Below, piece by piece: positions 20,645 through 63,797 of a stretch of 64,000 nt of DNA. The stretch's first letter is position 1; each line of letters begins with the position of its first letter. The position numbers were made by a program, and so were the translations under genes. The stretch comes from Gigantopelta aegis (lineage: Eukaryota; Mollusca; Gastropoda; Neomphalida; Peltospiridae): positions 66,111,478 through 66,175,477 of the forward strand of contig NC_054702.1 in the NCBI RefSeq assembly GCF_016097555.1, written 5' to 3'. Below the pieces are notes generated by a model that had not been told where the DNA came from, did not search any database, and worked only from the letters and a program-made list of their open reading frames with translations.

Positions 20645-23600
20645 GTAATTATTCCATTCTTTAGTTTTTATCACACTGAGCACATCTTGAGCATGCTTAT
20701 TAGTACCCTACTGGTCCAACGAGAGGGGACTATAGGTTTCACATCCGTCTTTCTGTCTGTCTGTCCGTCTGTCTGTCCCTTTGTTTGTCCCACATATGTT
20801 TTTATCACACTGAGCACATCTTGAGCATGCTTATTAGTACCCTACTGGTCCAACGAGAGGGGACTATAGGTTTCACATCCGTCTTTCTGTCTTTCTGTCC
20901 GTCTGTTTGTCCCTTTGTCTGTCCCACATATGTTTTTATCACACTGAGCACATCTTGAGCATGCTTATTAGTCCCCTACTGGTCCAACGAGAGGGGACTA
21001 TAGGTTTCACATCCGTCTTTCTGTCTATCTGTCCGTCTGTCTGTCCCACATAAGTTTTCCGTCAGTCATATTACATGTTTTATTAAAGTGACAGACCCTA
21101 TTTTTTAAAGATTGTGGCATATGTTTCACTATTAGAACCATTTTTGTTAACTAAAATCATACTTTACTTAAATTTTATTGTTTAGATTATCCATTTCCAT
21201 GCATCCAAAGTGTTTGTGGTCATCCTGGTATTTTTTATATCGCAAATTTGTATTTTTCATAATTTTAAAAACACAAGTGCGTCTGAGAAGTAACAGTTAT
21301 GGAGTCGATGTTTAATCTATTTTTAAGGGTATTTCACTATTTCAACACCATAAAATCTTGTTTCACTCTGTTGTAACTTTATCCAAATGTGTTAATGTTT
21401 GTAGATTAACTAAATTAGTATTAATTTTTACAAGTTGACACTATGCTCTGTGACTTTAAACCTATTTTGTTTTGATATGCTACTAGATAGTATTTACTAT
21501 AATGGCTGTTGTGGTTTCTGTTTCTAGAGAACCAGATCAGGATATACCTGGTAATGACAACCCTACTCGTTACGGTAACAACAGCAGCAACAGAGAACAA
21601 GCTTGGCATGACCATGATGATGAGTTGTATCCCTTTAATGCAAGAAATGAACAAAATCCAGCTTACTCCCAAAGACAGTTTCCCCAGCCTGATTACCATA
21701 GACATTATGGCAAACAGTGGTCCAAACAGGGCCAGTTTAACAACAGGCATGACTTTGATGAACGGGAGTATTACGAACAACAGAGGGATTTTCCTTCTTA
21801 CCACTATTCTGGATTTAGGCAGCGATATAACAGGGATCCTCTTGAAAGGCCTCCAAGGGATTTTGGCAGGCCACATTTTGACCAGCATGACGATGATGAC
21901 TATTATAAGGAGTATAATTCCAGAGATAGTTATAAAAGAGGCTCGCACCAGTTTGGCAGTGAAAGAAGAGATTTCAACAAGTACTCACAAAATGGGCAGA
22001 TTGAGAGACCCCCTCGAGACTTTGCTAAGCCAAGCCGGTGGGACCAACCATTTCGGGAGAATTTTGGTCGTTCTGAATATCCTGAATACCCTAGTTTTGA
22101 TAATCCTCATTGGCATGTGGCACAGTGGGATATGGAGCGACCTCCCTTCTTCAACTTTGAAGACGAGATGAACTACCATAACAGAAGTAACCGAGAAGGT
22201 TCTGGTCCAAGAATGCCAGATCCGGCATTTAGTAGAGACACGCGGGTTCCATCTGATGATTCTTTAAACAGGCCTAAATCTTTCCAAACCAGTGAGGGGC
22301 CAGAAGGTCCAGAGAAAAATGAGAGCAGAGAAGGATCTCCTAGTGTGTCCAGTTCAAACCCAGAACCTCTGGAACAAATGAATGGACGAAAGAGAGGCAG
22401 AGATGGGGAAGGGGAATCCTCAGCCTCGAAAGCATCACGGAAGGCAGAATTTATCTCAGAATTGCGCAAACGCCAAGCTTCTCCTGCAAATTCACCCAGT
22501 CGAGATTTCTTGAAAACGTCTAGTGACAATAATCCATTTGTCGAGCTGGCGCATGCAAGTTTGGGATACACAGAACAGCAGATGGATAGCTTGTCATCAT
22601 CAGATAGGTGTGTAACATCATCCAAAGATTCAGGGGTGAAAAAGGTTAACAGCCCTTTGCAAAGAAGACGAACAGCTACTTCTGTAAGGCCAAGGTTTAT
22701 TGGTGGTAAAGTGTCACCCAAAAGTGTGCGTGGTGTGAAATTTTCGGCAGGAAAAAAGTCAAATAACATTCAGACTGAATCTTCGAAAAATGGTGAAAGA
22801 AATTCTTCTCGAAATGGTGTTTTGGAAACAGCAGAAAAACTTTGCAGAGAACTTCGTGAAAAAAGGCAAAATGCCCAGAGAGAAAAAGAGAAATTGTTAT
22901 TACGCCAAACACAAAAATCTTTAAACAGTCGAATTGCTGTGCTGTCTAAAACGAATCAGTCTTATTTAAAGGGTCATCTTTCCCAGAATGAATCTGTGTC
23001 ATCAGTGTCAGTGTTACCAGAAAGTAGAATTGCTTTGGAATCATCTCATTCTCACAGCAGCATTCGTTCTAATACTGACTTGGAGCAGGCGTCTCGTAGT
23101 GATGATCCCAGGTTCAGCTCACTGCCTCTTCCACAGAGATCAGGCATTGACAAAATACGTCATGAAATAGAAAGTAGCGTTCGAGGAACAAAGAGATTTG
23201 TTAGATCATCTTGTGAAACTAGCAGACAGGAGAAACATCAGGAGGTGCCTCCACATCTGAAGCCAACAGGAAGACCTGTGGGAAAGGGTAAAGGACCCAT
23301 GAGTAAAGATTCTCTTGCCAAGATGATTAACGCACCACGGTCGAGAAAAGAGAGACTTCAGCTGGCACAGATAGTACGTTCACACAGTAAGACTCAGAAC
23401 AAGTTGGCGCCCTCCCGTCTCAATGTACAGTTAAGTGGGTTATACGACAATGATAATCTGGACTTTGATGAGGAGGAGATGTCTGAAATAACTTTGGAGG
23501 ATTTGTCACCTCAGGTGAAAATGCAGATTGCACGACTAATTGAAGATGATATTGTAGATTTTGATACCGGGTTTGTGTCGACCAGTCCTAAAACACCACC

Positions 23601-38200: not shown

Positions 38201-41200
38201 CAGGTTTTCTCTCTCAATATCTGTGTGGTTCTTAACCATATGTCTGACGCCATATAACTGTAAATAAAATGTGTTGAGTACGTTGTTAAATAAAACATTT
38301 CTTTCTTTCTTTTATTCTTCATTAACTTCCCACTGCTGGATGGACATGCTCCTCCAGCATGTCATTAACCATAATATACGGTTAACATGAATGTTTCACT
38401 CTGTAGGCTATACTTTAGTTCATTTAGATTTTAAGTTGGTAACATGTTGTAAAATCTGTTTCAGCTCTACACTGGTAACCGAAAGGGAGAGGTGGAATGT
38501 GTCAGTCTGGATCTCGACAAGAGCTGGAGTTGCAGAGTAAGTGTGACTTAAATGGACTAAAACTTTTAAATATTATTATAATTATAAAACTCTTCCATAA
38601 AGACCTCACAGAAACATAGATGGAATGTCTTTATTTTTTTAACAGTTCTTTGCCGACAACCTCTCCCCCATCACCTATATTAAAAAACAAAACAATTCTC
38701 AAAATTTTAAGATTTTAACAAAAAGAAAATTGCAAAATGTACGATGTGAATAAATTGCAAATATTTTATTTGCCATTGTTTTCTTATATTTTTAAAGCAA
38801 AATTGTAGAATCAGTTTTTATTGTTAATAACCTCACATATACCGCAGATATTAAAACACAATGTAAACCATTCTTTTACCGAGAAAAAACCTGGGCCATG
38901 TCTTAAACTGGCTATACAATAGATATGACACCATATTGGCTGATTTTATGACTGTATTTTTAATTTTAGAAAATGTATAATATCTCAAATATTTTAGAGA
39001 ATAGGGCAATATTAAAAACTTTAATACAATAAATAATACCGTTGTCATTTAAAAATTAATTAGGATTTTTCATGTGGTCTTTCCATGCATACAAAAAGCA
39101 ATCAAATTATCCTTTTTTTTTATAGTAATTGTAATTGCCAGTTTTCTTGTTTCAGAGTCCAGGCTGCAAATATGTGTTTGGACTGCGAGACCACCTGCTG
39201 CATCACATCATAACAGACCACACGCTGCCCAACACCAAAATGATGAGGTGTCCGTGGAAGGACTGCCCTCGTTGGATCTCCACCGAAAACAACACCAAGG
39301 TGGTTGTAAAATCTTCATAGCATCATTTTAAAGTTTGAATATATACCAGAGTTCGACAAATCCGCTAGCCCGACACCCATGGCTAGTGGTTTTTAAGTTC
39401 AGGCTAGTGAGAAATGCAAAACCACTAGCCCGCACAAACTGCAGTAACATGCTATCTCTACATCGTCACAGTTAAGCGTGCATTGTTTACTTTTCCCTTT
39501 CAAGTTTCTGGCACAGGAAATAAGTCTAATGACATGCGTGCTTTGATTGGTTGGACACGTCACGTGGTAGTTAATCTCGCACATATGTTTTAGGCTAAGA
39601 ACTTGGAAATCACAAATCGCGACGACAGGTTAATCTCAATCAAGTAAACCCCAGCCATACTTTGAATTTCAGTGTTTGTTTTATTTATCTATTGTTTTCT
39701 AATTTAACACTTCGCTGACATGTGGTTATCGGCAATCAGGAAAACAATTTACTTTAATGGTAACCGCATATGCAATGACTCGGCTTGGCCTATTACGTGT
39801 AGCGGTTTGGATAATACATCACAGTTGTCGATACAAGATAATACCTTTTTTGTTCATCAATTAACAACGGATTAGATGTCGCCGTTATATTCTTTTGATA
39901 TCGGTCTAACACGGGATAATGCCCTGTATTTGAGCAATTGGCATCACCGTTCATGGCGACATAAATAGTAGGCCCTAAATATATAACCAACTACCAAATA
40001 CACTGAACCATCTATTACTGTGTGTCACACTGTCGTATCCACATTTAAATTTAATTAGTTTGATAGTGGGTTTAGATGCCAACCATGAGTTTGCTCAATT
40101 ATTTTTCCCCGGGGGAGGGCAAAGCGAAAACGGGACAATGACGATGGATCACACTTGACAAAAGACCAAACATATGACACGACAAAAAACTGAAAGTTAC
40201 AACATGATTTAAAATTTTAAACTCGTAAATGTGTAATGTTACAAAAACATCCAGATTTGGAGGAATTTGGGCTAGTGCTTTATCTTGGTGGGCTAGTGCT
40301 TTATCTTGGTGGGCTAGTTTTATTTTACTGGGCTAGTGCTTTACTCGTAAATGCTTATCTTGGTGGGCTAGTGCTTTATCTTGGTGGGCTAAAATCTTGG
40401 TGGGCTATAAAAATCCAGTTATAATTGTGGCTAGGCTTTATCTTTGGGCTAGTGCTTTATCTTTGGGCTAGTGCTTTTTTGGTGGGCTAGTGCTTTATCT
40501 TGGTGGGCTAGTGGTTTATCTTGATCTAGTGGTGGGCTAGTGGTTTATCTTGGTGGGCTTGGTTTATCTTGATGGGCTAGTGGTTTGATCACAGTGCTTT
40601 ATCCACTAGTGCCTTGGTGTGGTTTAACGACTTTTCTTGGTGGGCTGGTTTATCTTGGTGTCAGTGGTTTACTCTGAGTGGTTTATGTGGGCTACTCTTG
40701 AAAAAAAGTGGTTTATCTTTGGGGAACTCTAATTGGTGGGCTAAGGTATATTGGGCTAGTGGTTTATCTTGGTTTATCTTGGTGGGCTAATGGTTATCTT
40801 ATGAGTGGTTTATCTTGGTGGGCTAGTGAATTATCTTGGTGGGCTAGTGGTTTATCTTGTGCAAACATTACACCTGGTAGTGGTTTTCACAAAGTAGCCC
40901 TGTGGCTAGCGACTTTTCAAAATATTTTTATGGACCAAAAAAAGTTGAAGATAATTTTGAAGGACGATTGAGGTCAGAAGTGAAATTTGAAAGATTGAGG
41001 TCAGAAGTGAAATTTGAAAGATGATGTTTTTGACTAAAAACAAAACAATAACAACTGTATGATCAACAGAATGAAAATGATTGACAGAAGTAATGTTCCA
41101 CAGTGATTAATCAACCTTCCTGGAAATTGTCAAAATCGAGAATGACACCCCACGCACGTGATGCACATGCGAACTATGGAATGTGTTTCAGTGTGCTGAT

Positions 41201-54700: not shown

Positions 54701-57700
54701 AACCAAAAAAGTGGGGATGAAGTTGTAAGTAATCGAAATCTAGCAGACCTAGACAAATTACTATTAATATTAGTCATTTATGCTAAACAAAATATACTGG
54801 TCAGTATGTTGTGGTGTTCTGAAATAATATTTTATTGTGTTTTTTAGGTAAATGTAGAAAACTCCGTTGACCAACTGTACACAGCATTTAGAAGTAGATT
54901 AAAGGATGACCCAGAGTAAGCACTGTTCTTCTCAACCCTTTTCATTTTATAACAGGTTTTAGCCACACAGGGCACATAAATACTACATCGGCATGTATAT
55001 TCTGTTCAACAACCAAAAATAAGCAATGTCCATCGTATGTAATGTAGTGTATTTACAGTTATTTGAAGTGATGTACAAATTATTTACTGCAATGATGTTA
55101 GTATGGTTTTAAGTCATTTCGACCCCATATACAATATTTAAGTATTGTAATTTTGTAATTGCTAAATTAATATAATTATGTAGTTGGCATATCCAATTAC
55201 CTTTTAAAAACATATGATTACTCTTAACATGCAAAATGACCTCTTAATTCATTATCCAACAATGGCCAAATTAATTGTGGATTAAGTTATGTTTAATGTC
55301 AATAATGTTAAAGTACACTGTAAATATAATGTTATGGAAACTAAAGTAACAGTTCAGATATATAAGCATGTTATTGTTAATAGCTACTAAAGAAACATTT
55401 CTTTTTAATTTCTAATGTAGTAAAATGACCTGCTACTATGAATTGTTTGCTTGCATCTGTACAGTCTAAAATAAACAACAAAACACACATTGATTAAATA
55501 GTTTCATTTAATAATCAGACGCAAATTGACATGTGACCGGGGCCAAAACAACTAGGGTTATGGGGCCAAAATTTCTGGGGCCGAACATGCACTTGGGCCG
55601 AAATGTCTCGAAAGTGTTAGTATTATGTTAAATAATTTGAAACTTCAATTCAATGTGTTGCAATCTACTTACTTGATAAGACTAGTCTCTGTGAGACAAG
55701 TAAGAGCAGAAAGTTGACAAAAATGGCCAAGTGTTTTACTGCAGTCCACATTAGTTTTAGCCAGCTGGTCCACAGCATATAAACATGTAGAAGCACTTGA
55801 CTGTGGCTGACAACTGGTGTAACAAAGGTCGTGGTATGTACTATCCTGTCTGTGGGATGGTGCATATAAAACATCCCTTGCTGATAATCGAAAAGAATAG
55901 CCTATGAAGTGGTGACAGCGGGTTTCCTCTCTCGATATCTGTCTGATCCTTAACCATATGTCTGTCGCCATATAACCGTAAATAAAATGTGTTGAGTGCG
56001 TCATTAAATAAAACATTTCCTTCCTTGACTGTGGCTGCATATGTTTTATATACATGTATTCATAATGACATTTCTAATTTCTCATCCCAGCATTCCAGTA
56101 CTAGAGCGTGGTATTCATCGAACATTCCTCTGGAAGGGACTCAAGAGCTTGTCGGGGGCATATGAGGTAGCGCATTAATTTACTCTCCCCCTTCTCCCTC
56201 AACAACTTCAGTTTGTGAAAAGCAATAATTATTATGAACATATTTTAAAGTACAGTGGATAAAATTTATAAGACACTTTTGCATATCAACTTTAAATTTG
56301 TGAATAACTACATTTTGTATTCGACTATTTGTGGACCTTAATATACCGTAGGTTTTACCAGTGATGCAAATTAGTTTTACCAGTGATGCAAAGCATTAAT
56401 TTCTATGGATGTATTATTCTGGTGGTTGAAAGTGAATTGCTGAAGTTTAGACTGTTCCACTTTTCATTAAAGAAAAGTAATTATATTATTAATGCTATTA
56501 TAATTAAGATTTTATGACAGCAGTATACTCATTATTATTATATAAAACTGTTATGTTCTCAGAATTTATTTGAACGCTTCAGCAATGCATATTAATGTTT
56601 TGTGACTACCAACATAGTATATTTAGATATTGAATGAAAATTATTGAGACTGCTAGTGAGTTATCACTAATCCACAGCAGTATCTTCATTGGTCTATATG
56701 GAACTGAATGCATTCTATCAGTCCATTCATTCATTCCATTCATTCCATTCATTCATCCAGCTGCTTCTACAATATGTTTCATTTAAATCAGCAATAAATG
56801 TTGGATTAAAAACAGGTAGATATTAAATGTTATATGTACCTCCATTAACACAGGGCTGGATGTAGTAAAGTGTTACAGCGGTCACTCGATGCGCGGTTCA
56901 TGCACCACGACTGGTATATCAAAAGGCTGTGGTATGTATTACCCTGTCTGTGGGATGGTGCATATAAAAGGTCTATTGCTGCTAATCAAAAAGAGTAGCC
57001 CATGAAGTGGCAACAGCAGGCTTGGTCCTTAACCATATGTCTGACACCATATGTGTTGAGTACGTCATTAAATAAAACATTTCTTTCTTTCTTTTTCCAT
57101 TGACACATCACCAGGTACTAATCTAGCTGTTGAAATTGCCTTTTTTTTGCCCTAGATTGGCTCAATATGCCAAGTTATTAGTCAAAATAGTTATAATATT
57201 TTCAACATTTATGGTCATCTCACATTTAGTATATATATTTTTATCTCGCCTTCATGTAAAATTCTTTAATCTCATTGATTGTTTGCCGTTGGAAAATTCC
57301 CTTATACCCCTGTGGGGGGAGTCAAATTCTCTTATACCCCGTCTGTAATTTCCAACAGTTTCCAGCCATCCCAGTTAATGCTAAAGCAATAAAATTTTTT
57401 TACTACATACATTTTTTTTATTTTATTAATATCTGTTTCAGACAATTTCGTATTACAAACATTTGAAGTTAAAAACTCGTTTATTGATGGAACTATTTTT
57501 CGTCACTGGCAAGTGGTTTCGTTCGCCTCCGCTAATAAATTGTTAACAATTATTGTCTGGCGTTATTTTGATTATTTGGCTATATGGTTTAACATGTCGG
57601 CAAGATTAATTCGTTGTAGAAGCATCTCTCGGGTATATGGCTTTTTATGTACCCGTTGTGTGCTCTTTTACCCCCTCGCCTTCGGCTCTGGGAAAAAACC

Positions 57701-60700
57701 CATATACCCCTCGTGTTGCTTCTACAACTTATAGTGTTTATTTTAATAAAATGGTAAAAATGAAAACTGTTGTGATTTATTTATTTTTTGAAATAATGTC
57801 TTATAAGCAGTTACTGGTTCCTTTTCGCCATATTTTTTCAAACTACTCTCTCTTTTTTTTTCTGGGAAAAGTTTTTTTAAGTCACTTTTTCAATATTTTC
57901 AATCCTAGATTAGTGCCTGTTCAGTATTTTTTTTATTTCAGTGTTTAAATGTGCCTGATCTCTATTTTTTGTTGTTTCAGTGTTTTGATAGTGCCTAATC
58001 ACTTTTTTATTTTATTTCCTTGTTTAGATAGTGCCTGATCACTATGTCTTGTTATTTCAGTGTTTGGATAGTGCCAGATCTCTATTTTTTGTTGTTTCGG
58101 TGTTTTGCTAGTGCCTAATCACTTTTTTATTTTATTTCCTTGTTTAGATAGTGCCTGATCACTATGTCTTGTTATTTCAGTGTTTGGATAGTGCCAGATC
58201 ACTATGTCTTGTTATTTCAGTGTTTAGATGGTGCCTGATCTCTATGTCTTGTTATTTCAGTGTTTAGATGGTGCCTGATCACTATGTCTTGTTATTTCAG
58301 TGTTTGGATAGTGCCAGATCACTATGTCTTGTTATTTCAGTGTTTGGATAGTGCCTGATCTCTATGTCTTGTTATTTCAGTGTTTGGATAGTGCCAGATC
58401 ACTATGTCTTGTTATTTCAGTGTTTGGATAGTGCCTGATCACTATGTCTTGTTATTTCAGTGTTTGGATATGCCTGATCACTATGTCTTGTTATTTCAGT
58501 GTTTGGATAGTGCCTGATCACTATGTCTTGTTATTTCAGTGTTTGGATAGTGCCAGATCACTATGTCTTGTTATTTCAGTGTTTGGATAGTGCCAGATCT
58601 CTATGTCTTGTTATTTCAGTGTTTAGATGGTGCCTGATCTCTATGTCTTGTTATTTCAGTGTTTAGATGGTGCCTGATCACTATGTCTTGTTATTTCAGT
58701 GTTTGGATAGTGCCAGATCACTATGTCTTGTTATTTCAGTGTTTGGATAGTGCCTGATCACTATGTCTTGTTATTTCAGTGTTTGGATAGTGCCAGATCA
58801 CTATGTCTTGTTATTTCAGTGTTTGGATAGTGCCTGATCACTATGTCTTGTTATTTCAGTGTTTGGATATATGCCTGATCACTATGTCTTGTTATTTCAG
58901 TGTTTGGATAGTGCCTGATCACTATGTCTTGTTATTTCAGTGTTTGGATAGTGCCAGATCACTATGTCTTGTTATTTCAGTGTTTGGATAGTGCCTGATC
59001 ACTATGTCTTGTTATTTCAGTGTTTGGATATATGCCTGATCACTATGTCTTGTTATTTCAGTGTTTGGATAGTGCCTGATCACTATGTCTTGTTATTTCA
59101 GTGTTTGGATAGTGCCAGATCACTATGTCTTGTTATTTCAGTGTTTGGATAGTGCCAGATCTCTATGTCTTGTTATTTCAGTGTTTAGATGGTGCCTGAT
59201 CTCTATGTCTTGTTATTTCAGTGTTTAGATGGTGCCTGATCACTATGTCTTGTTATTTCAGTGTTTGGATAGTGCCAGATCACTATGTCTTGTTATTTCA
59301 GTGTTTGGATAGTGCCTGATCACTATGTCTTGTTATTTCAGTGTTTGGATAGTGCCAGATCACTATGTCTTGTTATTTCAGTGTTTGGATAGTGCCTGAT
59401 CACTATGTCTTGTTATTTCAGTGTTTGGATATATGCCTGATCACTATGTCTTGTTATTTCAGTGTTTGGATAGTGCCTGATCACTATGTCTTGTTATTTC
59501 AGTGTTTGGATAGTGCCAGATCACTATGTCTTGTTATTTCAGTGTTTGGATAGTGCCAGATCACTATGTCTTGTTATTTCAGTGTTTAGATGGTGCCTGA
59601 TCTCTATGTCTTGTTATTTCAGTGTTTAGATGGTGCCTGATCACTATGTCTTGTTATTTCAGTGTTTGGATAGTGCCAGATCACTATGTCTTGTTATTTC
59701 AGTGTTTGGATAGTGCCTGATCACTGTGTCTTGTTATTTCAGTGTTTGGATAGTGCCTGATCACTATGTCTTGTTATTTCAGTGTTTGGATAGTGCCTGA
59801 TCACTGTGTCTTGTTATTTCAGTGTTTGGATAGTGCCTGATCACTATGTCTTGTTATTTCAGTGTTTGGATAGTGCCAGATCACTATGTCTTGTTATTTC
59901 AGTGTTTGGATAGTGCCAGATCACTATGTCTTGTTATTTCAGTGTTTGGATAGTGCCAGATCACTATGTCTTGTTATTTCAGTGTTTGGATGGTGCCAGA
60001 TCACTATGTCTTGTTATTTCAGTGTTTGGATGGTGCCTGATCACTATGTCTTGTTATTTCAGTGTTTGGATGGTGCCAGATCACTATGTCTTGTTATTTC
60101 AGTGTTTGGATGGTGCCAGATCACTATGTCTTGTTATTTCAGTGTTTGGATGGTGCCTGATCACTATGTCTTGTTATTTCAGTGTTTGGATAGTGCCAGA
60201 TCACTATGTCTTGTTATTTCAGTGTTTGGATGTGCTTGATCACTATGTCTTGTTATTTCAGTGTTTGGATAGTGCCAGATCACTATGTCTTGTTATTTCA
60301 GTGTTTGGATAGTGCCAGATCACTATGTCTTGTTATTTCAGTGTTTGGATAGTGCCAGATCACTATGTCTTGTTATTTCAGTGTTTGGATAGTGCCAGAT
60401 CACTATGTCTTGTTATTTCAGTGTTTGGATAGTGCCAGATCTCTATTTTTTATTAAGGGGCTGGACATAGTCCAGTGGTAAATTGCTCACTTGATGTGCA
60501 GTCTGTTTGGGATCGATCCCCGTCGGTGGTCTATTTCTCGTTCCATCCAGTGCACCACAACTGGTATATCAAAGGCTGTGGTATGTGCTATCCTGTCTGT
60601 GGGATGGTGAATATAAAAGATCCCTTGCCATTAATGGAAAAAAATGTAGTGGGTTTCCTCACTATGACTGTATCAAAATGACCATATGTTTGACATCCAA

Positions 60701-60879
60701 TAGCTAATGATTAATAAATCAATGTGCTCTAGTGGTGTCATTAAACAAAAAACCCTCTTTTTTAAATATATTTTTTTATTATTTCAGTGTTTAGATGCGA
60801 GTCGGCCATGGCTGTGTTACTGGATTGTTCACAGTTTGGAGATCCTGGAGGAATTGATTCCTGAGGACATAGCAGTGCA
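51760..60879 (+). CDS. FNTB: Protein farnesyltransferase beta subunit, first four coding exons (partial gene)
   Basis: Exons 51760-51861, 54848-54915, 56091-56166 and 60788-60879 join in phases 0, 2, 0, ending in phase 2. They give MEDANELRHRC.., DEQ|VNVENSVDQLYTAF.., ..PE|IPVLERGIHRTF.., then GAYE|CLDASRPWLCYWIVHSLE. The last part is nearly identical to human FNTB (YECLDASRPWLCYWILHSLELL). FNTB binds farnesyl diphosphate, zinc and the CaaX substrate; with FNTA it farnesylates Ras, lamins and others in the cytosol. Only the N-terminal part is present; the catalytic alpha-alpha barrel and zinc ligands lie right of the window. The first donor (CAG|GTTCTT) is weak; the last is A|GTTAGT at 60880. 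Intron 3 (56167-60787) contains the decoy splice-site minisatellite. Confidence 0.9.
52010..52310 (+). mobile_element. SINE, family A, short tail, full length
   Basis: GGGGTGGGACGTAGTCCAGT head, GGGATCGATCCCCGTCGGTG box B, complete body and tail TGGTGTCGTTAACCATATCA. In FNTB intron 1. Confidence 0.9.
52318..52506 (+). mobile_element. SINE, family A, headless copy in tandem
   Basis: Begins at TTCTAGTCGGTGCATCATGA directly after the previous SINE and ends TGTTGTTAAACAAAACAAAC. The pair is in the same orientation. Confidence 0.85.
52811..53990 (+). mobile_element. SINE, family D, split by a 920-bp DNA element
   Basis: Head GTGGGATTTAGCTCAGTCG, body, and tail up to GTGCTCCAATGCAG (53040); the tail resumes at 53961 with ATGCAGTGGTGTCGTTAAAT. 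The interrupted tail matches other SINEs exactly across the gap. Confidence 0.85.
53041..53960. mobile_element. 920-bp DNA element inserted in the SINE tail
   Basis: Flanked by ATGCAG (53035-53040 and 53961-53966). Ends GCCTCACGCGAAGTCACTTC and complement GGCTCACGCAACTGGGCGAAG; CTTCTCTCTCAAACTTC-like motifs recur in inverted order behind both ends. No coding frame. The superfamily is not clear. Confidence 0.78.
54021..54225 (-). mobile_element. SINE, family C, truncated
   Basis: TTCCGTGCTTATATCCAGTT, TTCAAGTATGCTGTCCTGGG and CTTACACCTACCCATTGAG match the two copies at about 30 kb; the head is shortened. Confidence 0.72.
54336..54484. mobile_element. Probable hAT-like MITE, 149 bp
   Basis: Ends CAGTGACGGATCCAG / complement CAGTGGCGAATCTAA; no clear target duplication. 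Precedes a short SINE tail scrap at 54592-54672. Confidence 0.55.
55810..56025 (+). mobile_element. SINE, family A, long tail, headless
   Basis: Starts at CAACTGGTGTAACAAAGG and ends GAGTGCGTCATTAAATAAAA. It ends about 65 bp before FNTB exon 3. Confidence 0.85.
56851..57098 (+). mobile_element. SINE, family A, long tail, internally deleted head
   Basis: GGGCTGGATGTAGTAAAGTG, CTCGATGCGCGGTTC, then directly CATGCACCACGACTGGTATA; long tail with TTTC repeats at the end. Confidence 0.82.
57275..57728. repeat. Two hairpin structures with TATACCCC motifs
   Basis: 57284-57358: GTTGGAAA..TTTCCAAC around TTATACCCC (twice). 57615-57728: GTTGTAGAAGCA..GGGTATATGG pairs with CCATATACCCC..TGCTTCTACAAC. 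They look like related palindromic elements, just before the minisatellite. Confidence 0.55.
57910..60450 (+). repeat. 40-bp minisatellite derived from the FNTB exon 4 splice acceptor, about 63 units
   Basis: Tandem units of 40 bp (some 38-42) run through FNTB intron 3. Each reads, in parts: TGTTTGGATAGTGCC, (A/T)GATCACTATG, then TCTTGTTATTTCAG. The real exon 4 junction is TTTTATTATTTCAG|TGTTTAGATG, and many units carry exactly TTATTTCAG followed by TGTTTAGATG. Every standard unit therefore contains a pyrimidine tract, CAG and about 10 bases of exon 4. The first few units (57910-58150) are more diverged, with TTGTTGTTTCAG and a longer T run, closer to the real site. Common variants are CC(A/T)GATC, GAT(A/G)GTGCC and GATATATGCC. 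Short open frames of 62-128 codons inside it are by-products of the repeat. Confidence 0.93.
60457..60755 (+). mobile_element. tRNA-derived SINE (family A, short tail) between the minisatellite and FNTB exon 4
   Basis: Full-length copy: head GGGGCTGGACATAGTCCAGTGG with box B GGGATCGATCCCC, shared central body (CACAACTGGTATATCAAAGG, CTATCCTGTCTGTGGGATGG), short tail GCTCTAGTGGTGTCATTAAAC. It is flanked by ATTTTTTATTA (60445-60455) and ATTTTTTTATTA (60770-60781), which I read as the target duplication. It therefore landed inside the polypyrimidine tract of the last unit. Confidence 0.85.
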
Positions 60880-60959
60880 GTTAGTCTTCCTTTACCTTTT
60901 AATTTTTTTTATTTTACGACTATGCGGATGTTTTGTTCATGCTAAACGAACCTTCGGAA

Positions 60960-62702: not shown

Positions 62703-63797
62703 TCATGGTGAGTTGATGGGCTGATCAGGGGAGAAGTTGGGGAGTCCTTCCATCAAAAACTGGTTGTTACGTTCAAGGGCTCCTGTGTAGATGTCCCGCA
62801 GTACCATCTTTAAGATGCGATGAATGGTCGCGTTGGGCATCGTAGGCATCAGGAGTCCTTGTCTGTACAGCCCGTCCTGCTGCGATGTCACATAAAGTTG
62901 GTTGGAGTGGTTGGCCTGCTGGAGCTGATACTTCCCTTGTCCAGTCGGAAGTTGGCGCCAGTGCTTGTCTGACCAGGGTCCCTTGAGTTGTTTGGCATCG
63001 GTGAAATCGCCAATGACCGCTCCTCTATACTTTGTTGGGAGTTTATCACATACGATAATCCAGTCGGGTTGGTCGGACTTCTTCGGTGAGGTAACCGATG
63101 ACGTCTTCCTCCTTTTGGATTCTCGCTGGATCTCCGCTGGTTTTTCAACAACAACAACCAGAGGTGGTGGTGGACTTTCCGGTGGGTCAATAGTGACCAC
63201 GTGTCCCGTGTCCATCGATGAAGGAACCTCAACAGGAGGAGCCTCCACTGTCAGTGGAGCTGACAGCTTTGGTCCCCCCTGGATGGTTCCTGGCGAGTGC
63301 TTCGGTCGAGTGGGTGGAGTCGGTGTAGCAGAATGAACCGCCCCTGGTGGTTTGGCCACCGGGTTTGGATCACCCTGCACCGTTCCGCATCTCGTCCTCC
63401 TCTTCGGGACAGGTGGAGCCGCCCCTGGCGGTTGAGCCGCCAAGTTAGGCTCCCCCTGTGTAGTCTTAGGTCGCCGCCTCCGTCTTCTACTGGTTGCGCG
63501 TCGCTTCGTCTCGCTGCCGTAATGTAGCGTCACAGTCGCTGAATCTCCATTGTGCTCAATTCTATACTTGGCCAAGGGCCCAAGCGAACGAAGCACAGCC
63601 CCTAGGGTAGGGGGGAGAGAAATCGCCACGTTCTCGGAACACAACCTCATCGTTCGAGAGAAATTCGTAGGTCCTCCATGTTCATGTGTATTTGTTTTGG
63701 TTTCAGAGTTGTGCAGTTTCTTGGAAAATGTCAGTCGCCCTCTGGTGGATTTGGTGGTATGTAGGCAGTCTCTTAATCTTATCTCTTTTCTATTCAA
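62703..63797 (-). CDS. Unrecognised 364-codon GC-rich ORF, possibly of mobile-element origin
   Basis: A single uninterrupted frame lies antisense inside FNTB intron 4. I do not recognise the protein. Residues 1-49 are weak, and a second start at 63650 (MRLCSENVAISLPPTLGAVL) may be the true one. It then shows ATVTLHYG, an Arg-rich block (ATSRRRRRRPK), a proline-rich region with three related GxPx(L/V)(A/S)xPPGA-type repeats, a basic KRRKTSS, and a compact C-terminal part (WIIVCDKLPTKYRGAVIGDF.., LYRQGLLMPTMPNATIHRI). There is no RT, transposase or zinc-knuckle motif. GC content and codon use differ sharply from the flanks. Candidates are ORF1 of a non-LTR element, a domesticated element gene or a lineage-specific retrogene. 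Confidence 0.45.
   Translation of the reverse strand: MNRKEIRLRDCLHTTKSTRGRLTFSKKLHNSETKTNTHEHGGPTNFSRTMRLCSENVAISLPPTLGAVLRSLGPLAKYRIEHNGDSATVTLHYGSETKRRATSRRRRRRPKTTQGEPNLAAQPPGAAPPVPKRRTRCGTVQGDPNPVAKPPGAVHSATPTPPTRPKHSPGTIQGGPKLSAPLTVEAPPVEVPSSMDTGHVVTIDPPESPPPPLVVVVEKPAEIQRESKRRKTSSVTSPKKSDQPDWIIVCDKLPTKYRGAVIGDFTDAKQLKGPWSDKHWRQLPTGQGKYQLQQANHSNQLYVTSQQDGLYRQGLLMPTMPNATIHRILKMVLRDIYTGALERNNQFLMEGLPNFSPDQPINSP
63736..63748 (-). promoter_or_regulatory. CTCF-core-like motif
   Basis: The minus strand reads CCACCAGAGGGCG, a full match to the CCASYAGRKGGC core known for CTCF. It falls in the first residues of the GC-rich ORF. One match in 64 kb could arise by chance, and similar strings occur inside many mobile elements. 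Confidence 0.25.

Follow-up and report, generated by a model that had tools for sequence, protein, structure and literature searches.

We analysed a 64-kb window on the forward strand of the assembly of the deep-sea vent snail Gigantopelta aegis (1.149 Gb; C4:66111478-66175477), which contains the gene for farnesyltransferase beta, FNTB. Intron 3 of this gene carries a 40-bp minisatellite made of copies of its own junction with exon 4, and the authentic junction is the last member of the array. The array was probably formed by tandem duplication of the FNTB junction and corresponds to the minisatellites known from amphioxus as "mirages". It is most likely a tolerated by-product rather than a regulator, with exon definition picking the authentic acceptor at 60788. 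We give this reading a probability of about 0.77. Coordinates without a contig prefix refer to the window.

FNTB was mapped with the G. aegis database protein; the match to the gene in the window was 99% along a query of 357 residues. The gene consisted of 13 coding exons, of which the 11 internal ones measured 50-133 nt. Exon 4 opens in phase 0 with TGT TTA GAT GCG, coding for CLDA. It was aligned to residues 95-123 of mammalian FNTB, and the encoded peptide CLDASRPWLCYWI was identical to the mammalian protein there. The parts of the gene and of the array referred to below are as follows.

56091..56166, forward strand: FNTB exon 3, ending in ...GAYE, phase 0, followed by the donor GTAGCG
56167..60787, forward strand: FNTB intron 3 (4.6 kb), containing the array
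57878..57923, forward strand: possible older decayed unit, marginal, covering the start of the array and the bases just before it
57911..60446, forward strand: 40-bp minisatellite of intron 3/exon 4 junction copies; 62 complete units are followed by a partial 63rd
57942..58060, forward strand: three 5'-edge units starting with TGTTTAAATG, TGTTTTGATA and TGTTTAGATA; long T runs in the divergent units 1 and 2
60422..60455, forward strand: 5' part of unit 63, cut by the insert
60446..60455, forward strand: left copy of the target-site duplication TTTTTTATTA, 10 bp, in T-rich surroundings
60456..60781, forward strand: 326-bp insert resembling a short interspersed element (SINE), with a tRNA-like head, second target-site copy included
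60772..60781, forward strand: right copy of TTTTTTATTA, forming part of the authentic acceptor's polypyrimidine tract
60788..60879, forward strand: FNTB exon 4 (92 nt); acceptor CAG ending at 60787, donor GTTAGT from 60880
63707..63756, forward strand: FNTB exon 5, from protein-to-genome mapping

The junction array and its origin

One unit of the array comprises 30 bases of the end of intron 3 followed by 10 bases of the start of exon 4. Tandem Repeats Finder reported a period of 40, 63.4 copies, and 94% matches. The junction string TTATTTCAGTGTTTRGAT, with two mismatches allowed, occurred 63 times in the window (62 times in the array and once at the true junction, 60779-60796) and was absent from 100 shuffles. 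Parsing at the junction gave 63 copies in addition to the real junction at 60788. The junction trinucleotide was CAG in 60 of them, CCT in two, and CGG in one, which bears out an earlier, sequence-only reading of this DNA that had proposed about 60 decoy acceptors in a 40-bp minisatellite before exon 4. The exon side started with TGTTTRGAT in 60/63 copies, again as proposed; that many copies matched exactly through ten exon bases was overstated, since all ten (TGTTTAGATG) were found in 8/63, while 44/63 read TGTTTGGATA. The likeness to exon 4 ended after these ten bases, as CG came next in none of the 63 copies. Among the 62 complete units, 56 were 40 bp long, three were 39 bp, and three were 41 bp.

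T runs of 6-8 bases, as at the real site, preceded five array junctions, all within the first six, so the long T run noticed earlier in the first units was recovered; the interrupted last unit 63 had one as well. Divergence was greatest in units 1, 2, 4, and 5 and in the remnant of unit 63, and the interior consisted of few types. The interior pyrimidine tract is derived and homogenised, with the long T run kept at the edge units and in the cut last unit. Units 4-6 resembled units 1-3, as from a 120-bp duplication. Identical units were commonest at lags of 10 (22/52), 14 (16/48), and 24 (12/38), followed by lag 2 (17/60), and the peaks at 10, 14, and 24 indicate that whole blocks were copied. 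The score of the marginal unit at 57878-57923 was equalled by 13/500 shuffles against the early units and by 107/500 against the interior ones.

The insert at 60456-60781 separates the array from exon 4. From its letters, rather than from a match in a repeat library, we take it to be a molluscan tRNA-derived SINE; Rfam and ARAGORN gave no match anywhere in the window, insert included. Without these 326 bp, unit 63 is exactly 40 bp long and runs into CAG|TGTTTAGATGCG in the phase of the exon junction. The array was therefore formerly continuous with exon 4, and the authentic junction is its terminal member, in register. The sequence-only reading had described the whole interval 57910..60787 as array; the array is there, but it does not fill the interval because the insert lies inside. 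The insert now provides the sequence upstream of the exon 4 acceptor, which is shifted by 326 bp from the array.

A 161-bp piece of the array, searched against the 1.15-Gb assembly, gave 19 matches, all inside the FNTB array; this search scored the best candidates only, and one candidate region was found and scored. A dispersed satellite or transposon-borne repeat was rejected on this ground. Exon 4 itself had one match in the assembly. The exact string TTTCAGTGTTTAGATG occurred at 11 places, nine of them here, and the two others were array-free within 280 bases around each. Two observations had been named in advance as speaking against a junction origin, namely the 40-bp satellite at unrelated loci and exon bases missing from the oldest units. 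Neither was seen: the best-scoring candidates in the assembly all lay in this array, and units 1-3 keep 8-9 of the ten exon bases.

The codons copied into the array are conserved. CLDA was present in 152 of 189 FNTB proteins among the matches listed (two lists, own protein included). In predicted proteins of the chimaera Callorhinchus (P0119) and the birds Haliaeetus (P0098) and Corvus (P0109), the sequence changes abruptly to unrelated residues directly before CLDA, and in the mammalian models P0036 and P0057 additional residues stand precisely at the AYE/CLD boundary. These gene models suggest that vertebrates share the intron position. The single locus and the conserved CLDA codons show that the FNTB junction gave rise to the array and not the reverse, copying having run from gene to array. 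Together with the register regained without the insert, this agrees with the proposal that the junction was duplicated in tandem and that the functional site is the last unit.

Comparison with known junction repeats

Tandem repeats spanning an intron/exon boundary, on either the acceptor or the donor side, have been described in amphioxus as mirages (available parts of PMC3087553 and PMC3902484). According to the same parts, mirages occur in Adh3, the globin genes BflGb6 and BflGb9, and troponin C, and in imperfect form in PGBD5; the AG and GT signals are kept in many repeats, the interior is homogenised and the edges are spared, regular splicing is reported to be undisturbed, and a role in intron gain is proposed. 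The two haplotypes of the BflGb6 mirage contain 3 and 6 units, each 150-160 bp long, and the Adh3 units measure 10-72 bp (available part of PMC3087553). The FNTB array shares with mirages the boundary-spanning repeat, the kept acceptor signals, the homogenised interior, and the divergent edges. It differs in that it occurs in a mollusc, forms one 63-copy array of 40-bp units, and is separated from its exon by a SINE-like insert. On every testable feature, the array agrees with the definition of a mirage, and as far as the literature searched shows, it is this class in a new phylum. The earlier statement that such a satellite was not a described class does not stand, since amphioxus mirages and the human IFI6 donor minisatellite precede it in the available texts.

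The IFI6 minisatellite is said, after work by Turri in 1995, to provide multiple donors. It resembles the FNTB array in being a minisatellite with repeated splice signals of a usable type at an exon boundary; however, it lies on the donor side and its units are really used, whereas the FNTB array lies on the acceptor side and is known from sequence alone. A link to splicing or to disease has reportedly been made for intronic tandem repeats of variable number in human or dog, for example in ABCA7 and hTERT. In OGT, ARGLU1, and SF3B1, retained introns contain decoy exons that engage the spliceosome without inclusion (available part of PMC12017769). Intronic splice sites in FNTB could likewise hold the intron back, but each of those decoy exons also carries a donor, and donor-like sites in the FNTB array appear poor. 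No junction or acceptor minisatellite from a mollusc was found in the literature searched, the coverage of which was partial and included few subscription journals. The description of another, more fragmented G. aegis assembly (PMC7736800) gives the repeat content, and junction arrays are unmentioned in its available part.

Acceptor choice and alternative readings

In the favoured reading, slippage or unequal exchange would have produced tandem copies of the last 30 bases of intron 3 together with the first 10 of exon 4. Amplification would have followed through the exchange of single units and larger blocks, and the SINE-like element would have inserted afterwards into the last unit. Such arrays would arise wherever the frequent tandem duplication in this genome happens to span a splice junction. 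Exon definition is established for long introns. Because intron 3 is long and the internal exons are short (50-133 nt), it is expected to favour the acceptor at 60788, which would be paired with the nearby donor at 60880. A decoy joined to this donor would define an exon of 458-2938 nt. Before the insertion, the last decoy would have defined an exon of 132 nt (458 minus 326); possibly the insertion eliminated the only decoy whose exon would have had a normal length. Rare use of a decoy would truncate the reading frame, and the transcript would presumably be degraded by nonsense-mediated decay. The normal AYE|CLDA junction of the Gigantopelta database protein, the undisturbed splicing reported for amphioxus mirages, and the recurrence of similar arrays in this genome also speak for this reading.

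Several results weigh against this reading. Acceptors were scored with a matrix built from the 11 other FNTB acceptors, a crude measure with which 2/11 score below 0 when left out, and 58/63 decoys scored at least as high as the authentic acceptor. The median decoy score was reached by 8 of 5385 other same-strand AGs in 103 kb, or by 21 of 5385 with a matrix version that included two exon bases. A branch-like YTNAY motif was found 15-45 nt upstream of 35/63 decoys and not upstream of the authentic site. By sequence alone, the decoys are thus not weak and should compete with the true acceptor. In addition, the normal AYE|CLDA junction present in the Gigantopelta database protein may reflect homology-guided prediction. 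A weakening of the interior units as acceptors through their broken T run was considered and rejected, as the median decoy outscores the authentic site.

Joined to exon 3, the decoys led to a stop after 5 codons in 29/63 cases, after 16 codons in 18/63, and later in 16/63, and in none was the frame open to exon 4. The expectation that TAG would usually follow after about 16 codons is not confirmed, the commonest stop coming after 5.

The alternative that survives best, although we consider it unlikely, is a functional decoy array. The roughly 60 acceptor-like sites would bind U2AF/SF1 and trap the exon 3 donor in non-productive complexes; the length of the array would act as a rheostat, tuning FNTB output through retained introns or mRNA prone to decay, in the manner of OGT, ARGLU1, and SF3B1. 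The scores of the 58 decoys and the stop before exon 4 from all 63 speak for it, and U2AF-binding decoy exons promoting intron retention have been described (available part of PMC12017769). However, splicing is reported to be undisturbed by amphioxus mirages in the parts of the papers cited above, and the donor-like GT sites of the array are poor, the best matching 6/9 consensus positions (11 sites), yet the donor of exon 4 itself matches 5/9.

An assembly artefact in unit copy number or order is very improbable. Near-identical long arrays are hard to assemble, and one aberrantly assembled amphioxus mirage has been reported (available part of PMC3087553), but the unit variation here is ordered, with block duplications, and an error in copy number would leave the junction copies themselves standing. 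Slightly less probable still is an alternative-acceptor module like that of IFI6, with some units regularly used and an extra peptide in FNTB. Human IFI6 does use downstream repeat units as donors (available part of PMC4526556), but with 0/63 decoys open to exon 4, an extended protein would be impossible without further splicing, and the database protein shows the regular junction.

The reverse direction of copying, in which an older minisatellite of the intron extended as far as the exon and the acceptor and first exon bases were replaced by its last unit, likewise predicts the register between array and junction. This reading is close to refuted: the ten exon bases encode the conserved CLDA, which a random satellite could have provided only by coincidence, the intron position is seemingly shared with vertebrates, and the satellite had no match outside the array among the best candidates scored. 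Recursive splicing, with the units as ratchet points for stepwise removal of the intron, has in its favour the CAG ending 60/63 units, but AGGT is absent from the array and a donor would therefore not be restored at any unit after splicing; this is the least probable of the alternatives.

Junction arrays elsewhere in the genome

Three TTTCAG motifs at a spacing of 26-56 bp were found at 22295 places in the assembly, vs. 10911 places for the reversed control. This twofold excess is explained by TTTCAG itself being commoner than GACTTT (151 vs. 66 in 145 kb of local background), and an enrichment of TTTCAG minisatellites was rejected. The corresponding TTTTTCAG pattern occurred 472 times vs. 140 for its control, with background counts of 16 vs. 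7, too few to tell. The places listed for the TTTCAG pattern all lay in C1:0.29-3.87 Mb and represented 16 arrays in 15 regions. One array per region was analysed (n = 15); the array at C1:2665459, beside that designated L072, was left out. In four of the 15 arrays, the units contain bases of a neighbouring exon or exon-like open reading frame (ORF), and a fifth abuts an exon.

C1:2662600-2667600, reverse strand: L072, acceptor side, 48-bp units, 22 ORF bases and the acceptor repeated
C1:1188900-1193400: L068, acceptor side, 40-bp units, 20 ORF bases and 20 of the acceptor repeated
C1:3864500-3869000: L077, donor side, 22-bp unit, exon end and GTATG repeated
C1:810500-815000, reverse strand: L066, donor side, 41-bp units, last 26 ORF bases and GTATACTGCATAA repeated
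C1:1898700-1902900: L070, few degenerate intron-tail repeats of ~39 bp abutting the acceptor of a MAP4K4/MINK-like kinase exon

In L072, 22 exon bases are repeated, 21-22 of which agree in 9/10 copies; a 1-base deletion puts the remaining copy out of step. Its ORF is open for 50 codons up to a possible donor and has 52% GC vs. 18% in the 500 bases upstream. The unit length of L072 is divisible by three, and the frame is open throughout the array. All 12 copies in L068 match 17-20 of 20 exon bases, and the ORF is open for 62 codons up to CAG|GTGAAG. L077 contains 27 GGGAGGTAYG sites, the authentic donor included, and its exon is homologous to eIF4A-III (PDB, E 7.6e-10), which makes it the only exon among the four confirmed by homology. 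Every L077 unit carries both an acceptor-like and a donor-like site. In L066, 8/9 copies match 24-26 of the last 26 ORF bases, with a one-base shift in the ninth. A possible acceptor, TTACAG, precedes the ORF, which ends at CAG|GTATAC. The exon beside L070 was MAP4K4/MINK-like by PDB sequence search (E 5.7e-5) and shares no bases with the repeats.

Pfam and PDB searches gave no assignment for the exon-like ORFs of L066, L068, and L072. The best PDB row for L066, a collagen (E 0.03), was at chance level, and the similarity of the L072 peptide to an SH2 fragment was weak (E 0.009 for a single pair); both were rejected. In Pfam, neither the L077 exon (DEAD, E 0.057, below the cut-off) nor the L070 peptide had a significant match. 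No exon was recognised at either edge of the other ten arrays, both edges of which were located, and short exons were possibly missed; Pfam searches with one peptide each from nine of these ten (L073 left out) gave no significant match. L074 and L075 were irregular or simple-repeat stretches. L067 (C1:925500-930600) is built of 47-49-bp units that resemble an acceptor, a 23-base mini-exon, and a GTGAAG donor, with edges where no exon was recognised. At C3:16842524-16842637, the matched text shows a unit, TTTTTCAG|AACCGAATGATGGACATC..., resembling another acceptor followed by coding bases.

Genes of this animal are assumed to contain of the order of 100,000 TTTCAG acceptors from general gene-structure figures, and the genome contains ~1.2 million TTTCAG, scaled from the local background. 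A rough expectation under blind duplication is ~10% acceptor-side cases. The observed 2-3/15 are of the same order, and there is therefore no sign of preference or of strong removal. The genome may hold hundreds of acceptor- and donor-side junction minisatellites, with frequent tandem duplication hitting junctions like any other sequence and selection hardly removing them. We regard this as an even bet. The share of junction-derived arrays is uncertain in a sample of this size, and the count of hundreds is a guess.

Two other repeats were noted in the window: an irregular minisatellite of TGGGCTAGTGCTTTATCTTGG-type units with a 27-bp exact duplication at 40268-41022, and a 134-bp tandem repeat of 2.9 copies with 97% matches at 20664-21047.

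Splicing models disagree on the outcome when many good acceptors precede the true one. With 60 near-identical acceptor-like sites in a single intron of a single-match housekeeping gene, the FNTB array is a clean natural experiment on splice-site choice. Since such arrays recur even among the few loci sampled, minisatellites made of splice junctions are probably not confined to lancelets. In genomes rich in minisatellites, they may often contribute to intron gain and to the turnover of splice sites, a source that has been overlooked. If the genome does hold hundreds of them, dozens of good sites beside the real one would be nearly harmless in this animal, and its genome would offer a natural library in which the suppression of competing sites by exon definition could be measured. 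FNTB would then be one strong example, and some of the arrays may by now act as retention switches.

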